Positions 4,025 through 25,363 of a DNA stretch of 38,921 nt are shown here, in pieces. The stretch covers positions 1 through 38,921 of the forward strand of contig JANQJC010000108.1 in assembly GCA_028281825.1 (NCBI GenBank), read 5' to 3'. Source of the stretch: Flavobacteriales bacterium (GTDB lineage Bacteria > Bacteroidota > Bacteroidia > JANQJC01). Below the pieces are notes generated by a model. It saw only the letters and a list, made by a program, of their open reading frames with translations, made no database searches and was not told the DNA's origin. The number at the start of each line of letters is the position of its first letter. Positions within the stretch are counted from its first letter, which is position 1. The position numbers and the translations under genes are program-made.

Positions 4025-4122
4025 GCTTTTATACCACCTTGTGGTTGTTCAGAATAATTATTTAAATTTACTCAAACAGATGCGACCAATGTGCAGAAGG
4101 CTCTACCCTATTGAACCCATTT

Positions 4123-7100
4123 ATGAAAAACCTATACTTCTCTTTTCTGGTTGCCCTGATGGTTCTGATTGGCTATACTGCCAATGCGCAAGACACCATA
4201 GCCCCTACAGCACTCTGCCGTGATGTAACTGTTTACCTGGACTCATTGGGCAATGCCAGCATCACAGCCGCTGATGTGGATAGTGGCTCCTACGATAATA
4301 TTGGTATTGATACCATGTACTTGAGCCAATATGATTTTGATTGCAATCAAATATGGATAACTATCCCAATTACCCTTTATGTAAAGGATGCATCTGGTAA
4401 TATTGATAGCTGCAGTTCCGTTGTAACCCGTCGAGATACTGTTCCTCCAGTAATTACTTGTCGCGACACCACTATGTATTTACGTTCTACCGGATATGTT
4501 GCAACCAACTACCAAACTTTATTAGGAGTCCCTGCAATTGATGCTTGTACTGGTGTAGTATCAATTAGCGACCTTTCTGGTAGTATTTCTTTTCGTATTC
4601 CACCACCATTACCAGGTATGTCATTTGGTTGTGATAATATAGGTATGAATAACGTTATCATGACGGCTGACGATGGCAGAGGAAATACTTCTAGTTGCCT
4701 GATGGTAGTTACTATAATTGACACTTTTTTAGCTCCCATAACCAACTGTAGAAGCCCCATAACCCGCTATCTTAATTCAAGTGGATATGTGGATATATAT
4801 CCCTATCATCTATATTCAGGTGCAAGTTGCGTAACAGATACCATTACTATTAGCCAAACCCATTTTACCTGCGCTGATGTAGGTGTGAATGATGTGGTAG
4901 TTACTGCTTATGATTCATTGGGGAATTTCACTACTTGCACTACACAGGTAACCATAGTTGATACATTTATTACACCAACAGGTTGCCAAGACTTGGTGTT
5001 ATATCTTGACTCAGGTGGATTGGCTACTATCACCCCTTATGATATATTGACTGGGAACCCCTGTGGGTATAACTCAATAGAAATTGACCATAGTACATTT
5101 ACATGCAATGAAGTTGGGGCTAATGTGGTCAACCTTATCACAACTGACACCTTGGGCAATGTGGATACCTGCGTGAGTTCGGTAACGGTGTTTGATACCA
5201 TCGCACCCATGGCGATATGTAACGACACCACCCTTTATCTGGATGAGTCGGGTGATGCATCCATCGTTGAGCTTTTGCTTATCCCATATATCCATGATAA
5301 CTGCGCGATAAGCCAAATTACCCTTCAGATTAGTCAAGGGTTCCGTCCTTTGGCATGCCCACCACCGCCAATGCCCGGCCCTCCTGAGTCCTTTTTTGAT
5401 TGCGAAGATATTGGCGTGACCGAATACCTATACACCATGACAGACCCCAGTGGCAACCTTGCGAGTTGCACCGCCACGATAACGGTATTGGACACCACCC
5501 CTCCCGAGCTCATTTGCGAGAACGTGGATATGTACCTGCAACAGTCTATTTGGAATGGCAATATGTATATCTGGGGTACTGACTATTATCTTGACTATGC
5601 CGTGGCTGCAATTGATAACTGCGACGGGCCTTGGGTCAACCCTTACATTATTGATATCCGTAGCTCGGTGCCACCACCCTTGCCACCTCCTGATTATGTC
5701 TTTACCTGCAATGATTATGGCACTAATGAGGTATTGGTGGGCGTCGATGATAGTTACGGAAACACTTCTACTTGTACTTCCATTGTTAACGTTTTAGACA
5801 CTTTTCCGCCCACCATTGTGATGCCACCTAATGACACGCTTACATTTTGCATTGGTGACACCAATGGCGTTATTGTAAATTACCAAGAGCCAGAAGCTTT
5901 TGACGCTTGCGGGGTAGACTCTTTTCAGCAAATTGATGGTTTGCCAAATGGCTTTCTTTTCCCAATGGGTGTTACAGTTAATGTATTCAGGGCAATTGAC
6001 TCACATGGCAATGATATCAGCGATACACTAGTTATCAAAGTAACTTCAGGAGACGCCCCTTCAGCCGACTTCTCCTATAATGGTAATGGCTGTGTGGGCA
6101 GTGAGTATGAGTTTGAGGCCCATTATGTTGATACCAGTTTCCATTGTATGTGGTATTTTGGTGACTATACCAATCCAGCCCAAGGCATTAATACCACTCA
6201 TATTTATCAAAATGAGGGCGCTTATAATGTCACGCTTCATGTGACTGACGAAACTGGCTGTATGTCATCGGCATCGGAAACCATCTATTTGTTGCCCCAA
6301 CCTAGCTTGGCCGTTGACGCTACTGATGCATCCTGCCACAATACCCCTGATGCGACAGTTACCGCCCTGGCATCAGGTACACAAGCATTGCTCTACTCTA
6401 TTGATGGACATCCCGCGACAGCGCACAATATTTTCTATAATGTGTCCGCTGGCTCGCACAATGTGGTAGTGACTGATGGTAATGGTTGCACCAATAATGT
6501 CAATGTTTTTATAGGCCACGGTGGTGTGGAAGGCTATTATTTTGATGCCTTAACCCGCCCCGATTGTGAGACTAGCGCCAATGGCAGCCTAACGGTTGTT
6601 GCTTTTGGCGGCACCCCACCTTATTTCTATTCAATAAACAATGGAGGCAACCATGCTTCAGGTACTTTTAATTATCTGACTGGCGGGGAGCACACCATCA
6701 CCGTTACCGACTCAACAGGTTGCCAGTACAGTGGTACATTTACACTAGTTGCTGACCAGCCTATGCCCGTTGCTGGTTTTGATTTCACTTCAACCAGCCC
6801 AAACTATAGTTTTGACAATAGCTCATTGGAAGCTACGCAGTATCAATGGAGCTTTGGGGATGGCAGCACATCGACCCAGGAAAACCCCGGCCATAGTTAC
6901 ATGAATAACGGGGCTTACCTGGTTACCTTGATTGCCAGCAATGAGTGCGGTGCAGATACCATCAGCCAATGGGTGCAAGTAACGGGAGTTGGTATCAATG
7001 ACCTGAATGAAGAGTTGTTGATTGATATCTCCCCCAACCCCAATGATGGTAGTTTTTCGTTGCAGTTAGATGCCGCGAATGCCTTAAACGACATTGAAAT

Positions 7101-7263
7101 GAGGATATGGTCGGTAGAAGGCAAGCTGGTGAGCGAGCGCCAATTAAATGCTTCTGGAAAGACTTACAGAGGTAACTTCAATTACCCATTAGCAAGTGGG
7201 GTTTACACCTTGGAATTGTTGGTAGATGACATGAGTTATCACAAACGACTGGTGATTAAGTAA
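4123..7263 (+). CDS. T9SS-secreted HYR/PKD/SprB repeat surface protein
   Basis: 1046 residues from the ATG at 4123. This start is preferred over an in-frame TTG at 4111 because it gives a clean signal peptide (MKNLYFSFLVALMVLIGYTANA, cleavage before Q23). Six diverged versions of the 80-residue Cys repeat follow, then one HYR-like domain, a PKD domain (WYFGDY), two SprB-type repeats, a second PKD domain (WSFGDGS) and a T9SS type A sorting domain (SPNPNDGSF to the final KRLVIK). The C-terminal half is strongly similar to the upstream protein (shared YFYSI, NHASG and LTGG motifs), so the two are tandem paralogues. Three repeats carry Pro-rich inserts at the same place (about residues 159, 412 and 516). 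The first repeat has lost the DACG cysteine. A surface or adhesive role is inferred from the domains. Confidence 0.93.
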   Translation: MKNLYFSFLVALMVLIGYTANAQDTIAPTALCRDVTVYLDSLGNASITAADVDSGSYDNIGIDTMYLSQYDFDCNQIWITIPITLYVKDASGNIDSCSSVVTRRDTVPPVITCRDTTMYLRSTGYVATNYQTLLGVPAIDACTGVVSISDLSGSISFRIPPPLPGMSFGCDNIGMNNVIMTADDGRGNTSSCLMVVTIIDTFLAPITNCRSPITRYLNSSGYVDIYPYHLYSGASCVTDTITISQTHFTCADVGVNDVVVTAYDSLGNFTTCTTQVTIVDTFITPTGCQDLVLYLDSGGLATITPYDILTGNPCGYNSIEIDHSTFTCNEVGANVVNLITTDTLGNVDTCVSSVTVFDTIAPMAICNDTTLYLDESGDASIVELLLIPYIHDNCAISQITLQISQGFRPLACPPPPMPGPPESFFDCEDIGVTEYLYTMTDPSGNLASCTATITVLDTTPPELICENVDMYLQQSIWNGNMYIWGTDYYLDYAVAAIDNCDGPWVNPYIIDIRSSVPPPLPPPDYVFTCNDYGTNEVLVGVDDSYGNTSTCTSIVNVLDTFPPTIVMPPNDTLTFCIGDTNGVIVNYQEPEAFDACGVDSFQQIDGLPNGFLFPMGVTVNVFRAIDSHGNDISDTLVIKVTSGDAPSADFSYNGNGCVGSEYEFEAHYVDTSFHCMWYFGDYTNPAQGINTTHIYQNEGAYNVTLHVTDETGCMSSASETIYLLPQPSLAVDATDASCHNTPDATVTALASGTQALLYSIDGHPATAHNIFYNVSAGSHNVVVTDGNGCTNNVNVFIGHGGVEGYYFDALTRPDCETSANGSLTVVAFGGTPPYFYSINNGGNHASGTFNYLTGGEHTITVTDSTGCQYSGTFTLVADQPMPVAGFDFTSTSPNYSFDNSSLEATQYQWSFGDGSTSTQENPGHSYMNNGAYLVTLIASNECGADTISQWVQVTGVGINDLNEELLIDISPNPNDGSFSLQLDAANALNDIEMRIWSVEGKLVSERQLNASGKTYRGNFNYPLASGVYTLELLVDDMSYHKRLVIK

Positions 7264-7282: not shown

Positions 7283-7316
7283 AAAAGCCGTCTGCTACCA
7301 AGTGGATGGCTTTTTT
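7283..7316 (+). terminator. Rho-independent terminator after the second surface protein
   Basis: AAAAGCC pairs with GGCTTTT across about 20 nt that includes a further GTC/GAT partial pairing, and six T follow. It ends 16 bp before the next start codon, so the HTTM gene probably has its own promoter or depends on read-through. Confidence 0.75.
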
Positions 7317-7331
7317 CATTATTCTTGCCCT

Positions 7332-8660
7332 ATGGATATCAGCAAAATACTGGCGAAACCTATTAGCCCAACCAACCTGGGCCTATTCAGGATTATTTTC
7401 GGTGTGGTGATGCTTATCCAACTGGTCAGGTTACAACCCTACATCAACGAGACACTTACCCAGTCTTTATTTTTTCTCACCTACCCAGGTTTTAATTGGA
7501 TTACCATTACAAGCCCTGAAAACCTAAAACTGATTTTTACAGGGGGCTATGTTGGGTCAATACTATTGGCATTAGGTGTTTTCAGCAGGTGGGTTGCTGG
7601 TTTTCTTTTCATTACCTGGGGCTATCTTTTCTTACTCGATTCAGGGCATTATAACAACCACTACTACCTGATTTTATTGTTGTTGCTGCTATTTACAGTC
7701 ACCAACGCCGATGCCGCATTTCCAGTTCTTAAGAAGAAACGAAAAGATACCATCCCCTATTGGCAATTGTTTCTGTTTAAGTTCCAGATAGTATTGGTGT
7801 ATTTCTATGGTGGTTTGGCAAAGTTCAATATGGACTGGTTGAATGCAGCACCCATGAAAATCTGGCTAAGCATGAAGCCCTATGAGTGGCTGCAATCCGA
7901 TGCCATATCTTACTTTATTTGTTGGAGTGGATTAATCTTTGACCTTGCCATTGGTTTTCTCTTATGGAATAGAAAGACCCGCTTACTGGCGATATGTCTT
8001 TTAGTGCCTTTTCACCTATTCAATCATTTCATCTGGCAAATTGGGGTATTCCCATGGTTGATGATATTGGCAACTGTACTTTTTATTGAACCTGAAAAAC
8101 TCAATGCCCTACTGAAAAGAAAAGAAGCTAAAACCAAAAGTACCGCACTCTCATTTCCAACGCTAGCTAAAACCTTCGTGATGGTGTATATCGCTTTTCA
8201 ATTACTTTTTCCTCTAAGGCAAAGGCTCTATCAAGGGTATTCTTTTTGGAATGGCTATGGTTTTCGTTTTGCCTGGAACATGATGCTATACGATAACCTG
8301 GAAGACTTCAGGATTAAGGTTTCAGTGCCAGGTGAAGGAGTGGTGGGTTACATTGAACTGGAGCGCTACATGAACAAAAGACAGATTCGGAAATTCAACC
8401 AGTGCCCTCAAAACCTTACACGGCTGGGACATTTTCTAGCTGGCGAAATGAAAAATAATGCAGGCATTGCTAACCCTGAGTTGAATGCTTTGGTGCTGCG
8501 CTCCATCAATGGTAGGGCATACCAGCATTTTATAGATACAACAGTCAACATGGCCACTGCTGAATACTCCGCTTTCAAAGTTGCGGATTGGATAATCCCC
8601 TTTAAAGATACAGAGTATATTACTACTTCCGCGACAGAAGATATAGATGAATTGTATTAA
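7332..8660 (+). CDS. HTTM-domain membrane protein, vitamin K-dependent gamma-carboxylase-like
   Basis: 442 residues from the ATG at 7332; an in-frame ATG at 7302 lies inside the preceding terminator and is rejected. It opens with SPTNLGLFRIIFG, typical of HTTM proteins, and has several hydrophobic membrane spans through about residue 280, then a soluble C-terminal part. The segment YFYGGLAKFNMDWL aligns with the region of human GGCX that holds the catalytic Lys218 (AGVKKLDADW); the matching lysine here is K164. Known family role: GGCX uses reduced vitamin K, O2 and CO2 to carboxylate glutamates. Bacterial homologues are widespread and their substrates are mostly unknown, so the activity here is inferred. 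It is followed after 34 bp by mscS, which has a promoter of its own. Confidence 0.85.
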   Translation: MDISKILAKPISPTNLGLFRIIFGVVMLIQLVRLQPYINETLTQSLFFLTYPGFNWITITSPENLKLIFTGGYVGSILLALGVFSRWVAGFLFITWGYLFLLDSGHYNNHYYLILLLLLLFTVTNADAAFPVLKKKRKDTIPYWQLFLFKFQIVLVYFYGGLAKFNMDWLNAAPMKIWLSMKPYEWLQSDAISYFICWSGLIFDLAIGFLLWNRKTRLLAICLLVPFHLFNHFIWQIGVFPWLMILATVLFIEPEKLNALLKRKEAKTKSTALSFPTLAKTFVMVYIAFQLLFPLRQRLYQGYSFWNGYGFRFAWNMMLYDNLEDFRIKVSVPGEGVVGYIELERYMNKRQIRKFNQCPQNLTRLGHFLAGEMKNNAGIANPELNALVLRSINGRAYQHFIDTTVNMATAEYSAFKVADWIIPFKDTEYITTSATEDIDELY

Positions 8661-11201: not shown

Positions 11202-14189
11202 ATGAAAAACACAATACTTAACCTTATCAAATCCGGATTTGTACTTACTTTACTGATTGCAAGTGCTCAATTCGGTCGTGCAGCCACTTTTACAGCTATA
11301 GCCTCAGGTGACTGGAGTAGCTCAGCTACTTGGGGAGGTACCCCTCCTACGTATAATATCACAGCTGACCAAATAACCATTCCTACTGGAATAACTGTTA
11401 ACCTGGATAACAACACCACAATCAATGGTGCACTTGCTTCGCTAAATGTTCAAGGTACCCTTACATCCTCCGCGAGCACTTCACTTACGGTCGATTTGGG
11501 AACAATAGTAGGTGCTGGTACTATTGCTGTGAATGAACTGATCATGAATGCTGGCGCCACACTTACCTTCACCGGCTCTATTGCAGTAAATGCGATGACT
11601 AACGCAGCAGCAACACTTTCAGTGGCGGCTGATGTTGTAGTTGATCAGGCACTTACACTTGCTGCCGGTGCATTTAGCTTAGAATCAGGCGGAAGCCTAG
11701 GCCTGGGAAACAACGCTGATATAGTTGTATCAGGCGGTACAATTGCCGTAACTAGTGGAACTCTTTCTCTTTCAGGTTCATACAACGTTGTTTACACATC
11801 AGGCTCGGCAACTGCAGGACTTGAATTAAGTGGTTCAGGATTAAATGATATAACCGTTGATGTTGGCAATGCAAATAATGTAACACTTACTTCAAGCCTT
11901 GATGTGAATGGCACTTTACACTTAACAGGAGGCTCACTTGTACTGAATGGTAACGATTTATCTATTTCAGGCGATGTTTCTGCCTCAGGCAATGGCTACA
12001 TAGTTTCTACCTCAAGCTCAAACATTACTATTGATGCCAACGGAGGTATCTCTGGAACACTAAGTTTTGACGGCAATGCAAACAGTGTAAACAATCTTAC
12101 TATTGATGTTGGCTCTTCCAATAGCGCCAATATAGGTGGTATGTTAACTGTAAGTGGAAACTTGGCACTAAACAGTGGTACTATAGACTTCTCTGGAGCT
12201 AGCTTGGAGCTTGATGGCACAGTTAGTGGCTCAGGAAACCTTGCTGGTAACTCTTCTTCAACTTTAAATATTACTTCTACAGGTGGAGTTGGGGGTGCCT
12301 TGCATTTTGCTAGTGGCAGCCAGGCAGTAGGCGACTTTACTGTGAATGTAGGTTCTGGCAACTCTGTAGCTTTGGGCTCTAACCTTAGTGTTCATGGCTT
12401 CCTTAACCTAAATGGAGGAAGCAACATTGACATTAGTGACCAATCACTTACAATTACTTCAAATGGTGACATCACAGGTTCAGGCTCTTTTGTTACCAAT
12501 GGAAATTCCAGCTTGATGATTAACTCAAGTGGCGGCACCTCTGGTGATTTATCACTATCAGGAAGCAGTATAGGCTCTTTAACAATAAATGTTGGCAACG
12601 GCAACTCTGTGAGTTTAGGTAGTGATGCTAATGTTTCAGGAAACCTTTCACTTCAAGGAGGAAGCCTAGATTTGAATAATAACGATTTAATGATTTCTGG
12701 TGATATTGCTTCTGGCGGTAGCGGCAGTATTTCTGCCAATGGAAATTCTAATGTCTCTATATCTGGAAACACCTCCCCATCTGGTTCATTAAGTTTCTCA
12801 GGTAGTGCAAATACTGTTGGCAACCTAACCATAGATGTTGGTTCAGGCAATTCTGTTCAACTAGGCTCTGACGTTAATGTAAATGGAGATCTTGCATTAA
12901 ATGGCGGAAGCCATATAAACATTAATGGACAAACCGTTACTATTGGTAGCAATGGAGACATAACTGGCTCTGGTTCATTTATGGTAAATACCTCTTCAGG
13001 TTTGGTAATTAATTCAACTGGAGGAACATCTAGTAATATTTCATTATCAGGAAGCAGTATAGGGACACTTTCAATAAACCCTGGAAGCGGTAGTTCAGTA
13101 ACTTTAGGAAGTGACGCCAACGTTTCAGGAAATCTTGATTTGCAAAGCGGAATGCTAGTGCTTAATGACAATGACCTGATAATCTCTGGTGACATTTCTT
13201 CGAGTGGTAACGGAACAATTAGCTCTTCAGCCAATTCAAATATTTCCATCAATAGCAGTACTACACCTTCAGGCTCATTGAGTTTCTCTTCCAATGCAAA
13301 TACTGTTGGCAACTTTACTGTTAACATTGGTAATAGCGGTCACATAGATGTTGCATCCGACCTCACAGTAGATGGCACACTTGCTTTAGATAATGGAAGT
13401 GTGAATATTGGCGACAATCAAATTACTGTTGATGCAAACGGTTCAATATCAGGAGCCGGCAGCACCTCATATATTATGACCGATGCTGATGGTTCACTCA
13501 ATTTGAACGTTTCTTCAAGCGGTGGTGGTTCTGTTAACTTCCCGGTAGGAACAACATCTCATTTTTGCCCAGCCAATATCTCGCTTAATTCAGGAGATGG
13601 AATGGTAATGGTAGGCGTAATGGCTGATGTTTTTGCACAAGGCACAGGAGGAGTTGACCTTTCTGCAACACAGTCAGTTGTTGATGCTACCTGGAATATT
13701 GAAAGCTCAATTTCCTCTAATTTGGATATGGACATTGAACTGATGTGGAATACTGCTATGGAAGTAAATAGCTTTACCAACTCAGCAGTTTATGTTTCAC
13801 ACTATACCAATGGAAACTGGGATGCTGTTGCTGCTACTTCTGCTACGGCTCAAGGCAGTGGTATGTTTAGCGTTCAACGCAACAACATTACCTCGCTTAG
13901 CCCATTTGCAGTATTTGATGAAAATACAACCACAGGAGTTGCCCAGCTTGCATCTGAAGATTTGAGACTTTATCCCAATCCGGTAGTGAATGATTTATTC
14001 ATTTCAAATGTTGACATGACAGACCAAATTACCGTTGATATTATAAATATGAATGGTCAAATCATTAAGACCTTTACCATAAACTCTTCTAATGCAAGTG
14101 TTTCACTGGATGATTTAAGCGCCGGAAATTATGTAGTCAATCTATATAATGAACGCATGAATGAAGTACGAAAAATTGTGAAAAACTAA
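11202..14189 (+). CDS. T9SS-secreted Gly/Ser/Asn-rich repeat protein, predicted beta-solenoid adhesin
   Basis: 995 residues. The N-terminus (MKNTILNLIKSGFVLTLLIA to GRA) is a signal peptide, followed by SGDWSSSATWGG, a motif common at the start of secreted Bacteroidota repeat proteins. Residues 60-780 are low-complexity repeats rich in Gly, Ser and Asn with alternating hydrophobics (GSLDLNNNDLMISGDI, TVGNLTIDVGSGNSV), compatible with a right-handed beta-helix; a 163-residue super-repeat is visible. A non-repetitive globular part (about 785-905) and a T9SS type A sorting domain (LYPNPVVNDLFI to the final RKIVKN) follow. It contains very few Cys, unlike the two proteins at the start of the window. 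The preceding gene is a sigma-54 activator, with a palindrome and a candidate promoter between them. The ligand is unknown. Confidence 0.9.
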   Translation: MKNTILNLIKSGFVLTLLIASAQFGRAATFTAIASGDWSSSATWGGTPPTYNITADQITIPTGITVNLDNNTTINGALASLNVQGTLTSSASTSLTVDLGTIVGAGTIAVNELIMNAGATLTFTGSIAVNAMTNAAATLSVAADVVVDQALTLAAGAFSLESGGSLGLGNNADIVVSGGTIAVTSGTLSLSGSYNVVYTSGSATAGLELSGSGLNDITVDVGNANNVTLTSSLDVNGTLHLTGGSLVLNGNDLSISGDVSASGNGYIVSTSSSNITIDANGGISGTLSFDGNANSVNNLTIDVGSSNSANIGGMLTVSGNLALNSGTIDFSGASLELDGTVSGSGNLAGNSSSTLNITSTGGVGGALHFASGSQAVGDFTVNVGSGNSVALGSNLSVHGFLNLNGGSNIDISDQSLTITSNGDITGSGSFVTNGNSSLMINSSGGTSGDLSLSGSSIGSLTINVGNGNSVSLGSDANVSGNLSLQGGSLDLNNNDLMISGDIASGGSGSISANGNSNVSISGNTSPSGSLSFSGSANTVGNLTIDVGSGNSVQLGSDVNVNGDLALNGGSHININGQTVTIGSNGDITGSGSFMVNTSSGLVINSTGGTSSNISLSGSSIGTLSINPGSGSSVTLGSDANVSGNLDLQSGMLVLNDNDLIISGDISSSGNGTISSSANSNISINSSTTPSGSLSFSSNANTVGNFTVNIGNSGHIDVASDLTVDGTLALDNGSVNIGDNQITVDANGSISGAGSTSYIMTDADGSLNLNVSSSGGGSVNFPVGTTSHFCPANISLNSGDGMVMVGVMADVFAQGTGGVDLSATQSVVDATWNIESSISSNLDMDIELMWNTAMEVNSFTNSAVYVSHYTNGNWDAVAATSATAQGSGMFSVQRNNITSLSPFAVFDENTTTGVAQLASEDLRLYPNPVVNDLFISNVDMTDQITVDIINMNGQIIKTFTINSSNASVSLDDLSAGNYVVNLYNERMNEVRKIVKN
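12415..13393 (+). repeat. Two tandem copies of a 489-bp (163-aa) super-repeat
   Basis: Matching landmarks recur 489 bp apart: GGSNIDI at 12415 and GGSHINI at 12904, and the ggaagcagta segment at 12561 and 13050. Both copies hold the series SGSSIG, LGSDANVSGNL, SGDI and SFS.NANTVGN. Older, more diverged repeats precede them from about 11700. Confidence 0.8.
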
Positions 14190-17377: not shown

Positions 17378-17573
17378 ATCCACCTATGAAAATCCTTCTT
17401 TTATACTCACCAACCTATCTTAACCTTAAATGGGATTCCGCTAAGGTATCTTTTTAAAAATTATGCCTCGTTACAAAATTTCATTTTTAATGTATGAAAT
17501 CGCTTTATACCCAAAAAGCTGTTCTACGCTGGATTTTTATTTACTTTGTACCCCCTATCGAAAAACGCACCGG

Positions 17574-20459
17574 ATGGCTAAAAGAATACTTTTAACCCTT
17601 TTTCTATTGATAAGTGCCTTTGGTTTAACCTATGCACAAACCCTGAAAGGCACTCTGCTCGATGAAAACAAAGAACCCATGATTGGGGCAGGTGTAACCA
17701 TTAAAGGCACTTCGCTTGGAACGGCAACAGACCTTGATGGAAATTTCAGCATCAATGTTGGTGATACCAAACCCCCATTTACCATTATAGCTACTTACGT
17801 TGGCTACGATGCCAAAGAAATGGAAGTGACCTCATTAGACAAGCCCGTCACCTTACAACTTGGTGCAAGCGCCGTGGTGATGAAAGAGCTCACCGTTACC
17901 GAAAGAAGGTTAAGTGAAAAGCAGAGAGAGTCAGCCCTAACAGTTGAGTCGATGGATATAATTGCCATAAGAGAAACACCAGCTGCCAACTTTTATGATG
18001 GACTAGGGTCATTAAAAGGCGTTGACCTCACAGCCGCGAGTATAGGTTTTAAAATCATTAACACGCGCGGTTTCAATAGCACCTCGCCAGTACGCTCATT
18101 ACAGCTAATTGATGGTGTAGACAATCAAGCTCCTGGCCTGAATTTTTCACTAGGTAACTTCCTGGGCGCCTCAGAACTTGACATCCTCAAAGTGGATTTG
18201 ATACAAGGTGCAAGCTCTGCCTTTTATGGGCCAAACGCCTTCAATGGGGTTATTAGCATGACTACCAAAGACCCTTTCATCAAACCTGGCCTCTCGGTAA
18301 TGGCAAAGGTGGGTGAACGTAACATGTATGAAACTGCAGTCCGTTGGGCACAAGTTTTTAAAAACAAAGACGGGAAAGATAAATTTGCTTATAAGCTCAA
18401 CCTGTTCTATATGCAAGCCAACGATTGGGAAGCAAATAGTGACAATCCAACGCCACAGTCTGAAGTAGGAAAATATAACCCAGGTGGATATGACGCTGTA
18501 AACCGCTATGGTGATGAAAACCTCGCCAGCTCATCCAATAATGCTTCCAGCATAACTGGCCAAAAAGAAGCTCCGGGTTTAGGTATTTGGCATCGCACCG
18601 GCTATTGGGAAAAAGACCTGGTAGATTATGACTCAAGAAATATAAAAGCCGGTATAACAGGAGCTTACAGAATTACGGACGATGTTGAGTTGATAGCAGC
18701 CTCTAATTTCGGAACAGGAACTACAGTATATCAGGGAGACAATAGGTACAGCCTTAAAGGTATATTATTCTTCCAGAATAGGCTAGAGCTAAGAAAGAAA
18801 GACAAATGGTTTATAAGAGCTTATGCCACACATGAAGATGCTGGTGATTCTTACGACGCGGTTTTCACTGCTTTCCTACTTCAAGAAGGTGTTAAATCTG
18901 ATGAAGACTGGAGCCGCGCTTATTACAATTTTTGGACAACCAACAGTTTCTTGGTGGATGGTGATAACATAAAAGCCAAGGTAAGGGGATTGCCTGGCTT
19001 CCCTCCCCTCACTACGCCATTTGATACTGCAACTGCCAATTCAATTCTTGCTTTATACTACGACTCATTAGTAAATTGGCATCAGCAAGCTCATGATTTT
19101 GCCAACTCTCCTGACCCTATTTATGGTGGGGGCTCATACCTTGAGCCGGGCACTGCTGCGTTCGACTCTGCTTTCAATTCCATAATCTCTAAAACGGCAT
19201 ATTCTGAAGGTGGCACTAAGTTTTATGACAAGTCAGCACTATATCATGTTCAGGGTGAATATAAATTCACACCTAGCTTTATGGATATAACCGTGGGTAG
19301 CAACTTCAGGATATATACGCCAAATTCTGATGGAACGATTTTTAGTGACACACTAGAAATTTCAAGAATTGATAGCACTACATCAATAAACGGTAGTGAT
19401 ACCCTTACCCAGTATGATACCATTTATAGGAGAAACGTAATTACCAATTGGGAAGTAGGCTTGTATGCTGGCCTTGAGAAAAAGCTGATGGATGATAAAA
19501 TAAAGTTAAACCTAACCACCAGGGTAGACAAAAACCAAAATTTTGATTTCTTGGTTTCTCCCGCATTATCAGCAGTATACTCCCCCAACAAAAAACACAC
19601 CGTAAGGCTTTCGTTCTCCTCAGCTATACGCAATCCCACCCTGGCTGACCAATACCTGCATTACAATGTGGGTAGGGCGATACTCCTGGGCAACGTAACT
19701 GGATATGACTCATTAGCTACTATAGAGTCGCTTTATGATTATTTCGCTACACCCAATTTAGATGTAGATACTATTCAATACATAAATATCCCCAGAATTC
19801 AACCTGAAAAGGTTAAAACCGTTGAAGTAGGATACAGGGTTACCCTCTTTGAGAAACTGTTTATCGATGCTAACTATTATTATAGCTGGTATGATGACTT
19901 CATAGGATATAAGCTAGGCGCAGAGCTCACATTCCATCCTATATATACCAATTTTCTGCAAGACGCACAAGTATACAGGATAGCAGCTAACGCTGACGAT
20001 AGGGTAACTACCCAAGGCTTTTCAGTAGGAGGTAATTTATTCTTTGCTAAAAGATATTCACTGAACGGTAATTACTCCTGGAACAGACTGGATAAACAGG
20101 GCTCTGATGACCCAATCATTCCTGCATACAACACCCCAGAACACAAGTACAACATAGGGGTTAGCGGTAGAGACGTATCTCTCAAGTTTGGTAGTTTCAA
20201 AATAGGAAACATTGGTTTCAGCCTTAACTATAAATGGGTGCAAGGCTTTGAGTTTGAAGGCTCTCCTCAGTTCACCGGATTTGTGCCTACTTATGACATG
20301 CTGGATGTTCAGGTTAACAAGAAAGTACCCGCCATCAAAACTACTTTCAAGCTTGGCGCCTCCAATGTACTAAACAATAAGAGATTCCATGTTTTTGGCG
20401 GACCAAGGGTTGGTCGCTTAGCATATTTTTCCATCTTAGTTGACCTTGCCGACGAGTAG
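17574..20459 (+). CDS. TonB-dependent outer-membrane receptor with carboxypeptidase-like N-terminal domain
   Basis: 961 residues from the ATG at 17574, chosen for its signal peptide (MAKRILLTLFLLISAFGLTYA, then QTLKG); the frame is open further upstream but over non-coding sequence. Residues 22-108 form the carboxypeptidase regulatory-like fold common in Bacteroidota receptors (GTLLDENKEPMIGAGVTIKG, ATDLDGNF, TYVGYD). The plug follows (about 120-245; NTRGFN, LIDGVDNQ, VDLIQGASSAFYGPNAFNG), then a long barrel. Substrate unknown: no SusD partner is adjacent, which argues against a classic glycan SusCD pair. The nearby GH13 enzyme makes a sugar link possible but unproven. A TTACTTTG stretch at 17541-17548 is a possible -7 box. 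TonB proteins occur at 32671 and 33511. Confidence 0.93.
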   Translation: MAKRILLTLFLLISAFGLTYAQTLKGTLLDENKEPMIGAGVTIKGTSLGTATDLDGNFSINVGDTKPPFTIIATYVGYDAKEMEVTSLDKPVTLQLGASAVVMKELTVTERRLSEKQRESALTVESMDIIAIRETPAANFYDGLGSLKGVDLTAASIGFKIINTRGFNSTSPVRSLQLIDGVDNQAPGLNFSLGNFLGASELDILKVDLIQGASSAFYGPNAFNGVISMTTKDPFIKPGLSVMAKVGERNMYETAVRWAQVFKNKDGKDKFAYKLNLFYMQANDWEANSDNPTPQSEVGKYNPGGYDAVNRYGDENLASSSNNASSITGQKEAPGLGIWHRTGYWEKDLVDYDSRNIKAGITGAYRITDDVELIAASNFGTGTTVYQGDNRYSLKGILFFQNRLELRKKDKWFIRAYATHEDAGDSYDAVFTAFLLQEGVKSDEDWSRAYYNFWTTNSFLVDGDNIKAKVRGLPGFPPLTTPFDTATANSILALYYDSLVNWHQQAHDFANSPDPIYGGGSYLEPGTAAFDSAFNSIISKTAYSEGGTKFYDKSALYHVQGEYKFTPSFMDITVGSNFRIYTPNSDGTIFSDTLEISRIDSTTSINGSDTLTQYDTIYRRNVITNWEVGLYAGLEKKLMDDKIKLNLTTRVDKNQNFDFLVSPALSAVYSPNKKHTVRLSFSSAIRNPTLADQYLHYNVGRAILLGNVTGYDSLATIESLYDYFATPNLDVDTIQYINIPRIQPEKVKTVEVGYRVTLFEKLFIDANYYYSWYDDFIGYKLGAELTFHPIYTNFLQDAQVYRIAANADDRVTTQGFSVGGNLFFAKRYSLNGNYSWNRLDKQGSDDPIIPAYNTPEHKYNIGVSGRDVSLKFGSFKIGNIGFSLNYKWVQGFEFEGSPQFTGFVPTYDMLDVQVNKKVPAIKTTFKLGASNVLNNKRFHVFGGPRVGRLAYFSILVDLADE

Positions 20460-20569: not shown

Positions 20570-22015
20570 ATGAGAACAAAACTACTTTTGACACTTTTAC
20601 TGGGTCTGTTTTTGACCCCTGCATTCTCACAGAGGTATATTACTGAAGTTTTCAGTAGTGTAAACAGAACTGATACCGTTACCTTCGGTACTAATATCAG
20701 TGTACTTACAGGGTCACCAGAAGCACAAACCCTGAAAATGGATGTATATGAGCCAGCTGGCGACACTGCATCTGCAAGGCCAGTTATTATTTATTTACAC
20801 TCCGGCAGCTTCCTTCCACAGGGCTTAAATCAACAATGTATTGGTAGCATTAGGGATAGTGCTGTTGTTGAAATATGCACCAGGTTGGCAAAAAGAGGTT
20901 ACGTGGTGGCTGCACTTGACTACCGCCTTGGATGGAACCCACTTGCCCCAACGGAAGAAGAAAAAAGAGGCTTGCTAATCAATGCGGTGTACCGCGCCTT
21001 ACAGGACACTAAATCAGCTGTTAGATGGTTCCGCAAGGATAAAGTTGAAGGCTCAAATACCTTCAAAATTGACTCTGATAAATTTGTATTGTTTGGTCAA
21101 GGCTCAGGTGGTTACATTGCTTTGGCATACATCACTCTTGATAAGCCTGAAGAAATGTTTATCGACAAGTTCATTTACTCAAACCAACAACCAATGGTTG
21201 ATACTTCTTTGAGTGGTAACTTTGATGGTACACTCAATCGTCCGCTATGTATAGCTAATCACACTGGCTATAGCAGCGAGGTAACTATGGTTGTAAACAT
21301 GGGTGGTGCTCTTGGTGACTCAACTTGGTTAGAAGCTGGTGATAAGCCAATCGTTGCTTTCCACGTTCCTAGTGACCCATTTGCTCCTTACGCTACTGGT
21401 ACTGTATTCGTACCTGGAACTTCACTTGCTGTTGTTGAAGTAAGTGGTTCTTATGATGTTCTTCGCATTGCTAACCAGTTTGGCAATAATGCTGTTTTTG
21501 AAAACGCGAACATCAGTGATGCATATACTTCAGCTGCTAATGCCAACAATGATGGCTTGACAGGATTATATCCATTTAACCGCCCAGGTGTAGAAGCTGG
21601 TCCATGGGAATGGTGGGATCCTAGCTGCCAATATCATCAAGGTGGCTTAGCAACTAACCCTGATATGTCAAAAACTAAGGCTATGGCTTACATCGATACT
21701 ATCTTAGGTTATTCTGCTATCAGAATAGCTGCCGGTAGTGGCGCTGTTAACGTTGGTATCGAAGAAGCTGTTTTGAACCACTCAGTTGAAGTTTACCCTA
21801 ACCCAACTGAAGATATTCTTAATATCAAGAGCAACTTGGATAATAATGCTGTTGAATTTGTTGAATTTTTTGATGCCATGGGAAGAATGGTATACAATGA
21901 AACTATCAATAGCTCAATATCTACAATCAATACAAACAACATTGCTCCAGGCTTGTATTTGGTTAATATTAAAACCAAACAAGGCGAGGTAGTCAAAAGA
22001 GTTGTAGTGAAGTAA
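20570..22015 (+). CDS. T9SS-secreted alpha/beta-hydrolase-like protein without catalytic Ser (copy 1)
   Basis: 481 residues: signal peptide (MRTKLLLTLLLGLFLTPAFS, then QRY), an alpha/beta-hydrolase domain of the carboxylesterase type (about 40-395), and a T9SS type A sorting domain (VYPNPTEDILNI to the final KRVVVK). The fold is recognisable from VIYLHSGSF (oxyanion region, HSG where HGG is usual), YVVAALDYRLGWNPL and KSAVRWFRKD. At the nucleophile elbow, where esterases have GxSxG, this protein reads GQGSG (176-180) with Gly178 in the serine position. Asp269 may fill the acid position. I see no obvious catalytic His in GLYPFNRPG. It is probably non-catalytic or changed in chemistry, but Ser179 next door keeps some doubt. 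A tandem paralogue with an identical terminator follows. Confidence 0.88.
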   Translation: MRTKLLLTLLLGLFLTPAFSQRYITEVFSSVNRTDTVTFGTNISVLTGSPEAQTLKMDVYEPAGDTASARPVIIYLHSGSFLPQGLNQQCIGSIRDSAVVEICTRLAKRGYVVAALDYRLGWNPLAPTEEEKRGLLINAVYRALQDTKSAVRWFRKDKVEGSNTFKIDSDKFVLFGQGSGGYIALAYITLDKPEEMFIDKFIYSNQQPMVDTSLSGNFDGTLNRPLCIANHTGYSSEVTMVVNMGGALGDSTWLEAGDKPIVAFHVPSDPFAPYATGTVFVPGTSLAVVEVSGSYDVLRIANQFGNNAVFENANISDAYTSAANANNDGLTGLYPFNRPGVEAGPWEWWDPSCQYHQGGLATNPDMSKTKAMAYIDTILGYSAIRIAAGSGAVNVGIEEAVLNHSVEVYPNPTEDILNIKSNLDNNAVEFVEFFDAMGRMVYNETINSSISTINTNNIAPGLYLVNIKTKQGEVVKRVVVK

Positions 22016-22035
22016 TTAACTTCACTTAATACTGG

Positions 22036-22068
22036 AAAAGCCCGACTAAGTTTAGTCGGGCTTTTTTT
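22036..22068 (+). terminator. Terminator of hydrolase-like copy 1
   Basis: AAAAGCCCGACTAA and TTAGTCGGGCTTTT are perfectly complementary 14-base arms, and T's follow. The 30-base hairpin is identical to the one after copy 2 (23580-23610). Confidence 0.92.
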
Positions 22069-22070
22069 GC

Positions 22071-22101
22071 TTGTTATATATCCCATTTGTGTTTATATTC
22101 G
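22071..22101 (+). promoter_or_regulatory. Candidate promoter of hydrolase-like copy 2
   Basis: TTG at 22071-22073, 20 bp spacing, then TATATTCG at 22094-22101 (one mismatch to TAnnTTTG). It starts immediately after the terminator of copy 1, so copy 2 seems to be transcribed separately. Confidence 0.45.
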
Positions 22102-22121
22102 CAAAAAACAACCGTATCACC

Positions 22122-23558
22122 ATGAAAAAATTTACCCTAGCCCTGGCTATTTTGATTAGCCAACTATCATTTGCTCAAACACGATATATTGATGAAGTTT
22201 TTTCCAGCGTCACTGTAACTCAAGAGATTCTTTATGCAACCAATATTTCAGTATTGACAGGATCCCCTCAATCTATGGATCTCACACTTGACCTCTATGA
22301 ACCTACTGGCGATACTGCGTCATCAAGGCCCGTCGTTATTTACTTACACGGAGGTATGTATCTACCCCAGGGAATTAACCAGCTTTGTACAGGTACTAAT
22401 AAAGATAGTTCTGTTGTAGAAATATGCACCAGGCTCGCAAAGCGCGGCTATGTGGCAGCTGCAATTAATTATCGCTTAGGTTGGAACCCACTTGCTTCTA
22501 CAGAAGAAGATAGAAGAAACCTTTGGGTAAATGCACTATATCGAGGGGTGCAAGACACCAGAACATGTGTGCGCTTCTTTAGAAAGGAACAATCGCAAGG
22601 CAACCAATACGGCATAGCTCCAAATAAGCTCATTTTAATGGGTGAATATACTGGCGGCGATATTGTACTGGCTGCCTTAACATTAGATAGGCCAGAAGAA
22701 ATTTTCATAGATAAGTTCATGGATTCTAATCAGTTAGCCATGGTGGACACTTCACTTTCCGGCAATTATGACGGAACCCTCAATCGCCCGTTTTGCACTG
22801 CCAACCATGTAGGTTATAGTAGTGATGTGTGTATGGCTGTTAATCTAGATGGTTCCATAGCTGATACTACATGGTTAGAAAGTGGTGATGAACCCATAGT
22901 TGCATTTCATGTTCCAGGCAATCCTATCACACCTTACAACACTGGAGCGGTGCTTGTAAGTGGCACTGCCAACGTTGTCGTTGAAGTAAGCGGTTCTTAT
23001 GATGTATTAAGGAGAGCAAACAGATTTGGAAATAATGACATTTTTGTAAATGCAAATTTCACAGATCCATACACCCAAGCGGCTAACGTTGATAATGATG
23101 GGCATGAAGGCTTATTCCCATTCTTAAGGCCTGGTGCAGAACACTGCCCATGGGAGTGGTGGGATGCAGCAAACTGCCCCTATACTCAAAATGGCTTAGC
23201 ATCCAATCCTGATATGTCAAAAAGCAAGGCCTATCATTACATTGATACAATTATGGCATATGCTTGTCCACGCATGGTGGTGGGTTGTGCAACAAGCATA
23301 GTGACAGGGCAAGAGAATTATCAATTGACGAAAGCCATAATAAGCCCCAACCCAACTTTTGACAGAGCTAATGTATCCATTAATGATGGGTTGATAAAAC
23401 ATATCAGCATTCATGATATCACAGGCAGGAGAATCTCCAACCAAGCTTTTAACTCTGTAAACTGTGATGTTGATGTAAATGCGCTTACTGCTGGAACGTA
23501 CTTCTTGCACATAGAAACAGATAAAGGTGAATTAGTTGAAAAGCTTATTGTCAACTAG
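22122..23558 (+). CDS. T9SS-secreted alpha/beta-hydrolase-like protein without catalytic Ser (copy 2)
   Basis: 478 residues from the ATG at 22122, chosen for the signal peptide MKKFTLALAILISQLSFA followed by QTRY; the frame continues upstream without a plausible start. It is a tandem paralogue of the preceding protein along its whole length. The oxyanion motif is intact (YLHGGMYLPQG), but the nucleophile elbow reads GEYTG (174-178), so Tyr176 replaces the serine, and the acid position reads PGNP, with Asn267 where copy 1 has Asp. A T9SS type A sorting domain closes the protein (SPNPTFDRANVSI to the final KLIVN). Both copies keep the PWEWWD motif and DMSK before the linker, so the fold is under selection even though the triad is not. 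The function could be binding or structural (inference). Confidence 0.88.
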   Translation: MKKFTLALAILISQLSFAQTRYIDEVFSSVTVTQEILYATNISVLTGSPQSMDLTLDLYEPTGDTASSRPVVIYLHGGMYLPQGINQLCTGTNKDSSVVEICTRLAKRGYVAAAINYRLGWNPLASTEEDRRNLWVNALYRGVQDTRTCVRFFRKEQSQGNQYGIAPNKLILMGEYTGGDIVLAALTLDRPEEIFIDKFMDSNQLAMVDTSLSGNYDGTLNRPFCTANHVGYSSDVCMAVNLDGSIADTTWLESGDEPIVAFHVPGNPITPYNTGAVLVSGTANVVVEVSGSYDVLRRANRFGNNDIFVNANFTDPYTQAANVDNDGHEGLFPFLRPGAEHCPWEWWDAANCPYTQNGLASNPDMSKSKAYHYIDTIMAYACPRMVVGCATSIVTGQENYQLTKAIISPNPTFDRANVSINDGLIKHISIHDITGRRISNQAFNSVNCDVDVNALTAGTYFLHIETDKGELVEKLIVN

Positions 23559-23579
23559 TATATTAAAATCTTAATTCTA

Positions 23580-23610
23580 AAAAGCCCGACTAAGTTTAGT
23601 CGGGCTTTTT
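23580..23610 (+). terminator. Terminator of hydrolase-like copy 2
   Basis: Same 30-base hairpin as at 22036 (14-base arms AAAAGCCCGACTAA and TTAGTCGGGCTTTT), followed by T. It ends 13 bp before the GH13 start codon. Confidence 0.92.
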
Positions 23611-23623
23611 CTATTTTTAGACA

Positions 23624-25363
23624 ATGAAGTTACTATTCCATACCACCCTCTATCTTTTATTGTGCTTGGGAGCTCTCGCGCAGGAAAACCCTTGGTGGAA
23701 AGAAACTACTGTTTACCAAATATATCCCCGCTCTTTTAAAGACAGCGATGGTGATGGTATTGGCGACTTAAATGGAATTATCTCCAAACTGGATTATATC
23801 AAAGGCTTAGGTTTTGAAAGCATCTGGGTTTCACCTTTCTTCAAAAGCCCGCAAGGTGACTTTGGCTACGATGTGGCTGATTATCGAGCTATTGCTACTG
23901 AGTATGGCGACATGGCAACTTGCGATTTGCTGATAGAAGAAGTCCACAAAAGAGGTATGAAAATCATCTTCGACTTGGTGATGAACCACACCAGCGACCA
24001 GCATGAGTGGTTTAAAAACTCCAAATCATCCCCTGATGCGGAAAAACGGGATTGGTACATCTGGCGCGACGGCAAAAAACCTAATGGCAAACGCCCGCCC
24101 AACAATTGGAAATCAATGATTGGTGGAAGCGGCTGGCACTATGACGAAACCACAGGACAATGGTATTGGGCTACTTTTTTACCCTTTCAACCAGACCTGA
24201 ATTACCACAACCCTGAAGTGAAAAAAGCTATGTTGGATGTAGCCCGCTTTTGGCTCGATAAAGGCGTTGATGGCTTTAGGCTGGATATCTTCAACACCAT
24301 TTATGAAGATACCTCTTTTGCCAACAACCCATTCTCATTAAAAATGATACCTGGTGAAGAAAACCCCAATGGCTACTTCCAGAAGGTAAAATACACCCAA
24401 AACCATCCTCAAAGTTTTGAGTTTGCCAAAGAACTGAGAGCCATTTTGGATGAATACCCTGAGCCTAAATACCTGGTAGGTGAAGTGTTCGGCGATACAG
24501 AAACATTGCGTAAATTCTGTGGGGAGAACGCCGATGGTTTGCATTCCATCTTCCTGTTTAAAACCCTCAAAACCAAGATGAAGGCCAAGCACCTTTATAA
24601 GATGATAGAAGAGTTTGAAGAAGCCTTTCCTGAGCCTTACGTACCCGTGTATGTATACAGCAACCATGATAAGGTAAGAAGTATCAGCCGCTACAAGGAG
24701 AATGAAAAAATTGCCCGCCTGCAAGCCATGCTTCAATACACCGTTCGTGGAATACCCTTCACCTACTACGGCGAAGAAATAGGCATGAAGCAAGCCTACA
24801 TTCCATTGAAAGAAGGCAAAGACCCACTCGCCAAGAAATATGAAAAAATGCCCCAATGGTTGGTGAATATGTCAGGACAATCCCTCAACCGCGATGAATG
24901 CCGCACCCCCATGCAATGGGATACTACTGCCAGTGCTGGCTTCTGCCAGGAAGGTGTTGGGCCTTGGTTACCCGTGAATGAGGATTATAGAGAGGTTAAT
25001 GTTCAATTGCTCTCAAAAGGGGACAACTCATTTCAGTCCCTAGTTCAGAATGATAACATACGCCGCCTTTATTCTAGATTAACTTATCTGAGAAACTCAG
25101 AATCTACTCTGCGTAAAGGGTCAATGGAATTAATAAGCTATAAAAAAGGTGTGCTTGCTTATTCCAGGGAACATGAAGGGCAAGAAATAGTTGTCTACCT
25201 GAACTTTACCAACAAACGAAAATCAATTCAAACAAAACCTGGACGAATATTAGACCAAACAGAATTTAATGCAATGATGGGTGTATATGTTAAAGACAAT
25301 TATGCCCTACAACCATATCAAGGTATCATCATTAAAATGAACGCCCCTTCAACTCGCAAATAG
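23624..25363 (+). CDS. Secreted GH13 alpha-glucosidase / oligo-glucosidase-like enzyme
   Basis: 579 residues with a signal peptide (MKLLFHTTLYLLLCLGALA, then QENPWW). The N-terminal VYQIYPRSFKDSDGDGIGD is diagnostic of the oligo-1,6-glucosidase-type GH13 enzymes and resembles their Ca-binding loop. Conserved regions: DLVMNHTSDQH, GFRLDIFN with nucleophile Asp221, LVGEVFGD with acid/base Glu287, and YSNHDKVR with Asp349; QPDLNYHNP is also present. The residue after the nucleophile is Ile222; in related enzymes Val or Thr at this place influences alpha-1,6 versus alpha-1,4 preference, so linkage specificity cannot be read directly. It likely hydrolyses short alpha-glucans in the periplasm. The 3' end overlaps the convergent amidohydrolase gene by 32 bp. 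Confidence 0.93.
   Translation: MKLLFHTTLYLLLCLGALAQENPWWKETTVYQIYPRSFKDSDGDGIGDLNGIISKLDYIKGLGFESIWVSPFFKSPQGDFGYDVADYRAIATEYGDMATCDLLIEEVHKRGMKIIFDLVMNHTSDQHEWFKNSKSSPDAEKRDWYIWRDGKKPNGKRPPNNWKSMIGGSGWHYDETTGQWYWATFLPFQPDLNYHNPEVKKAMLDVARFWLDKGVDGFRLDIFNTIYEDTSFANNPFSLKMIPGEENPNGYFQKVKYTQNHPQSFEFAKELRAILDEYPEPKYLVGEVFGDTETLRKFCGENADGLHSIFLFKTLKTKMKAKHLYKMIEEFEEAFPEPYVPVYVYSNHDKVRSISRYKENEKIARLQAMLQYTVRGIPFTYYGEEIGMKQAYIPLKEGKDPLAKKYEKMPQWLVNMSGQSLNRDECRTPMQWDTTASAGFCQEGVGPWLPVNEDYREVNVQLLSKGDNSFQSLVQNDNIRRLYSRLTYLRNSESTLRKGSMELISYKKGVLAYSREHEGQEIVVYLNFTNKRKSIQTKPGRILDQTEFNAMMGVYVKDNYALQPYQGIIIKMNAPSTRK

Follow-up and report, generated by a model that had tools for sequence, protein, structure and literature searches.

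What might a cell do with two adjacent genes for exported α/β hydrolases, neither of which retains the catalytic serine? This question is raised by a locus in a 38,921-nucleotide stretch of DNA from a Flavobacteriales bacterium (the window, by which we mean the whole stretch that was analysed), where two such genes lie in tandem on the forward (+) strand, as do all other features of the window given below. Both had been singled out in an original prediction made from the nucleotide sequence without database searches.

The two hydrolase genes and their products

The first gene (copy 1) spans positions 20570-22015 and encodes 481 residues; the second (copy 2) spans 22122-23558 and encodes 478 residues, counted from an ATG (MKKF) that is its likely start, the TTG at 22071 in the open reading frame list being probably a spurious extension. 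Each is followed by a hairpin terminator (22034-22067 and 23579-23610, respectively), and a 30-base core is identical between the two. Both proteins begin with a signal-peptide-like N-terminus and match, above the curated Pfam cut-offs, the BD-FAE family (PF20434; 46.7 bits for copy 1 and 42.0 bits for copy 2, cut-off 26.8) and the Por_Secre_tail family (PF18962). The latter matches, together with those of both copies to the NCBIfam model TIGR04183 above its curated cut-off, confirm the T9SS sorting domain that the original prediction had assigned to each of them; it is of type A and comprises residues 408-481 of copy 1 (21791-22012) and 407-478 of copy 2 (23340-23555). Given this domain, we infer that both hydrolases are delivered to the surface via the T9SS.

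Elsewhere in the window, we observed a secreted-looking protein of the GH13 α-amylase family directly 3′ of copy 2 (23624-25363), a T9SS cargo protein with PKD, HYR and SprB repeat domains (4111-7263), a 995-residue T9SS cargo protein whose sorting tail is its sole Pfam domain (11202-14189), and a protein with HTTM and a vitamin K-dependent γ-carboxylase-like lumenal domain (7302-8660).

At the nucleophile elbow, the predicted residues and their numbering proved exact in our alignment: Gly178 replaces the serine in copy 1 (GQGSGGY, residues 176-182; 21095-21115), and Tyr176 does so in copy 2 (GEYTG, followed by a further glycine; 22641-22655). The same holds for the acid position, where copy 1 keeps Asp269 (DPFAPY; 21374-21376) and copy 2 has Asn267 (22920-22922). 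AlphaFold2 models of the two proteins reached a mean pLDDT of 84 and a pTM of 0.88 each. In the model of copy 1, the strand stops at Gln177 and the helix begins at Ser179, so that the apex of the elbow is predicted to be Gly178, not Ser179; the structural check suggested with the original prediction thus places Gly178, and not Ser179, at the nucleophile position. When this model was compared with the PDB in Foldseek, the top matches were serine esterases (5aoa/7bfn and 6nkf), with E-values of about 1e-9 to 1e-10 and TM-scores of 0.41-0.46 by query length. The Pfam match, the model confidence and these esterase hits all agree with the earlier view that the fold was kept when the nucleophile was lost.

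Descent from an exported esterase family

Relatives were drawn from named genome contigs, from a set of 40 relatives and from 395 genomes of the class Bacteroidia, and a tree was built without the catalytic-loop columns, that is, without the trait under study. In this tree, whose bootstrap had not fully settled, a clade of 74 hydrolases from many Bacteroidia families is split from its sister group by a branch with a support of 100/99, and copies 1 and 2 pair as sisters (100/100). An independent loss of the nucleophile in each copy, as originally proposed, is contradicted by this topology: the copies are sister duplicates inside a clade in which 73 of 74 members lack the serine, and the loss is therefore older than the duplication. 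The homologue alignment that had been suggested as a check accordingly places the loss at the level of the clade. As read from the tree, the nucleophile is lost once, near the clade base; only copy 2 shows later changes, namely Tyr176 and Asn267. In another family, the dead hydrolase has separately undergone a tandem duplication of its own (loci L091 and L092).

The nucleophile position is occupied by Gly in 67 clade members, by Asp in three, and by Tyr, Ala, Asn and Ser in one each, and the clade-wide elbow consensus is GxG[TS]GGY instead of the serine-bearing GxSxG of BD-FAE-type esterases. In the sister family, by contrast, all 21 sequences have the serine, within a GxSAG elbow. The catalytic histidine, on which the original prediction was silent, is likewise gone: its column holds His in 21/21 sister sequences and in 0/74 clade members. 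In the clade, the place of the loop that carried it has been taken by an insertion, at the end of which stands PWEWWD (residues 345-350 of copy 1, 21602-21619; residues 343-348 of copy 2, 23148-23165). The original prediction had listed this motif, next to the rest of the fold, as kept; it is indeed present in both copies, but belongs to the clade-specific insertion and not to the ordinary esterase fold. The former oxyanion loop has been rebuilt as well, as the HGG of esterases became HTG in most clade members (55/74) and was joined by an FLP...N...TG insertion, giving the clade form HTG[SN]FLP..N..xTG. In copy 1, this loop reads HSGSFLPQGLNQQCIG (residues 77-92; 20798-20845) and starts with His77-Ser78-Gly79, while copy 2 has HGG at position 76. 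The HSG of copy 1, noted earlier as unusual, is so in comparison with active esterases, but is close to the norm of its own clade. Taken together, tree and alignment show, as judged from sequence, that the clade has a single origin in a family of T9SS-exported esterases of the BD-FAE type and has lost both the nucleophile and the catalytic histidine.

A few members depart from this pattern. Three divergent, Lewinella-type hydrolases (L014-L016) carry Asp in place of the nucleophile (GFDSAGW) and have lost the acid, yet still adjoin the receptor gene. One basal, long-branched member (L012) has kept the elbow serine (GSSSGAY) and has no receptor neighbour; it may represent an intermediate. A PNP-type motif is found in the C-terminal tail of 65 of 72 clade members, with several of the others being truncated.

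The hydrolases appear to be maintained proteins, since dN/dS values of 0.04-0.17 across 12 close ortholog pairs indicate purifying selection. Of 370 positions, 56 belong to the four loops that once formed the active site; these loops hold 13 of the 30 positions that the clade conserves and the sister family does not. Such conservation could reflect fold stability instead of binding. Where at least 90% of the clade agrees (66 positions), copy 1 deviates twice and copy 2 eight times; several of the latter changes lie in these loops, so that the pocket of copy 2 seems to have been altered further. It has perhaps been remodelled again, possibly for another ligand, or is relaxing.

Pairing with a TonB-dependent receptor

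The gene upstream of copy 1, a neighbour absent from the original prediction, encodes a TonB-dependent receptor of ~961 residues (17574-20459) with CarbopepD_reg_2, Plug and β-barrel domains (Pfam). Its reading frame opens at 17463, with 17574 (MAKRIL) as the likely start, and its stop codon is separated from the start of copy 1 by 110 bases. The closest relatives of solved structure are SusC homologues, across the N-terminal and plug parts only, and with 104 bits the receptor does not reach the cut-off of 368 bits of the SusC/RagA model (TIGR04056, NCBIfam).

This arrangement recurs beside dead hydrolases elsewhere. Among the first 53 loci, 34 have as a neighbour a TonB-dependent receptor of ~950 residues, which in most cases precedes the hydrolase in the same orientation at a distance of 15 to a few hundred bases; these receptors are orthologous, up to 59% identical to the one in the window, with the exception of two divergent ones (L082 and L086). 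As a control, we found no receptor homologue within ~6 kb at any of 20 sister-family loci, and no third gene was conserved around the pair among the examined loci. Three further associations were considered and rejected. A starch locus together with the downstream GH13 gene finds no counterpart, as no GH13 homologue lies near other clade members; a receptor from another class (~33% identity) does not represent an older pair, as no hydrolase occurs nearby or convincingly in those genomes; and the Bacteroidota BAM complex is not the receptor's home, as the additional subunits named for it are different proteins.

To follow the two genes beyond their immediate neighbourhood, a receptor profile was searched against the same 395 Bacteroidia genomes as the hydrolase, with presence thresholds of E ≤1e-70 for the dead hydrolase and E ≤1e-250 for the receptor, and the counts were compiled by hand from the search listings. 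In raw numbers that ignore kinship, the hydrolase is present in 171 genomes and the receptor in 165, with 162 having both and 221 neither; most genomes with the receptor have a single copy of it. Most of the exceptions come from broken assemblies: in eight of the nine genomes with the hydrolase alone, receptor genes are present in split or frameshifted form, and in two of the three with the receptor alone, pieces of the hydrolase lie at the ends of contigs, leaving just two discordant genomes once broken genes are counted. Both positions were listed for 131 genomes; the genes are adjacent in 105 of these, of which 102 have the receptor upstream and in the same orientation, and roughly one mapped pair in five is non-adjacent. 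In 22 further genomes, both genes are present but lie on different contigs. Within one genus, four genomes possess both genes and ten possess neither, and two other genera likewise vary jointly, which argues against ancestry alone as the source of the association. Co-occurrence and synteny thus show a conserved pairing of the two genes.

A proposed uptake unit and its known counterparts

Because the hydrolase almost always co-occurs with one receptor, a binding partner of the channel appears more likely than an enzyme. We therefore favour the view that the dead hydrolases are probably surface ligand-binding subunits of the one dedicated TonB-dependent receptor encoded upstream. By analogy with SusCD, BtuBG and XusAB, the T9SS would carry the hydrolase to the outer cell surface, where the pocket of the old active site, remodelled and lined with residues that are conserved specifically in the clade (Trp and Tyr among them), would capture a ligand; the hydrolase would then hand it over to the receptor, with which it would form a complex, and TonB-driven import would follow. 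In one family (L082-L086), the dead hydrolase is part of larger fusion proteins of 1145-1273 residues that also contain CBM_20/X25 repeats and a dockerin-like domain, and in one member of another (L106) it is joined to a SusE domain. Fusions to starch-binding CBM_20, to X25 or to SusE are compatible with ligand binding, but name no ligand.

The original prediction had left room for a binding, structural or altered catalytic role at the cell surface. A surface role without catalysis is supported, whereas altered catalysis is unlikely, since histidine is the conserved residue at none of the 66 positions on which at least 90% of the clade agrees. One could nonetheless imagine an enzyme with altered chemistry that relies on the residue following the elbow apex (Ser179 in copy 1) or on the retained acid: this residue is Ser or Thr in 73 of 74 clade members, where all 21 sister sequences have Ala, and Asp is kept at the acid position in 70 of 74, including copy 1. 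Such an enzyme would, however, have no conserved histidine to serve as its base. The residue two places before Ser179 varies and frequently has a bulky side chain (Q, I, Y, E or L), unlike in a GxSxG motif, Ser179 lies at the start of the helix and not at the apex, and the acid has itself changed in copy 2 and in the Lewinella-type members. We consider this reading very improbable, and Ser179 as a shifted nucleophile was rejected on account of the missing histidine and the unfit elbow geometry.

Two other readings accept a non-catalytic protein. The hydrolases might be surface adhesins or structural proteins akin to neuroligins, with co-regulation or shared ancestry accounting for the link to the receptor. 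Neuroligins do occur among the weak PDB profile matches (2wqz, E 7.5e-5) and are known non-catalytic members of the α/β hydrolase fold (PMC5943944), T9SS cargo is frequently adhesive, and additional surface domains (CBM_20, dockerin) occur in some clade members. Yet it would be unexpected for an adhesin to keep a near one-to-one relationship with a single receptor subfamily, even where the genes are unlinked, and to vary jointly with it within genera, which makes this an unlikely explanation. Alternatively, the receptor might serve the secretion or assembly of the hydrolase and not a joint import. The strict co-inheritance of the pair would suit this idea, as would the Myxococcus case, in which the TonB-dependent Oar is reported to be needed for PopC secretion (PMC6434023); but the sorting domains already provide the hydrolases with a dedicated export route through the T9SS, and we regard a secretion role as quite improbable.

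If the ligand-binding reading holds, the implications extend beyond this locus. We lean, with some reserve, towards a widespread and undescribed uptake system of Bacteroidia, in which a conserved TonB-dependent transporter is combined with a T9SS-delivered, catalytically dead esterase as its surface ligand-binding subunit, in place of a lipoprotein; in a partial collection of papers, we found no described pair of this kind. The pair likely serves a core function, since ~41-43% of the 395 sampled Bacteroidia genomes carry it, usually with one receptor copy. Some of the Bacteroidia genes that carry an esterase annotation, moreover, probably do not encode esterases.

With respect to fold and descent, the nearest known proteins in the tree are the BD-FAE/Abhydrolase_3 esterases (PF20434, PF07859) and the T9SS-exported sister family found in the same genomes, from which the clade differs by the absence of the catalytic Ser and His, by HTG plus an insertion in place of HGG, and by the new insertion containing PWEWWD. 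Non-catalytic cholinesterase-like proteins, including the neuroligins, likewise are surface α/β hydrolase folds without a functional triad, and they bind proteins (PMC5943944); as animal adhesion molecules, however, they are only remotely similar to the hydrolases of the window.

With respect to gene organization, the pair resembles SusCD/RagAB, which also combine a TonB-dependent barrel with a surface partner encoded in a neighbouring gene, receptor first, in Bacteroidota. Here, however, the partner is a T9SS-carried dead α/β hydrolase and not a SusD lipoprotein, neither copy matches the SusD family in Pfam or NCBIfam, and there is normally one pair per genome, without conserved polysaccharide-utilisation genes around it. 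Dedicated surface ligand-binding subunits of TonB-dependent transporters are also known from BtuB-BtuG (vitamin B12; PMC10404256) and XusA-XusB (xenosiderophores; PMC13142918) of Bacteroides. Since T9SS cargo is not lipid-anchored as SusD, BtuG and XusB are, a lid hinged to the barrel would have to be attached in some other way. Compared with the surface lipoproteins BtuG and XusB, the window hydrolases are T9SS cargo with an esterase-derived fold and would add an enzyme-derived, T9SS-delivered kind to the known surface subunits of TonB-dependent transporters.
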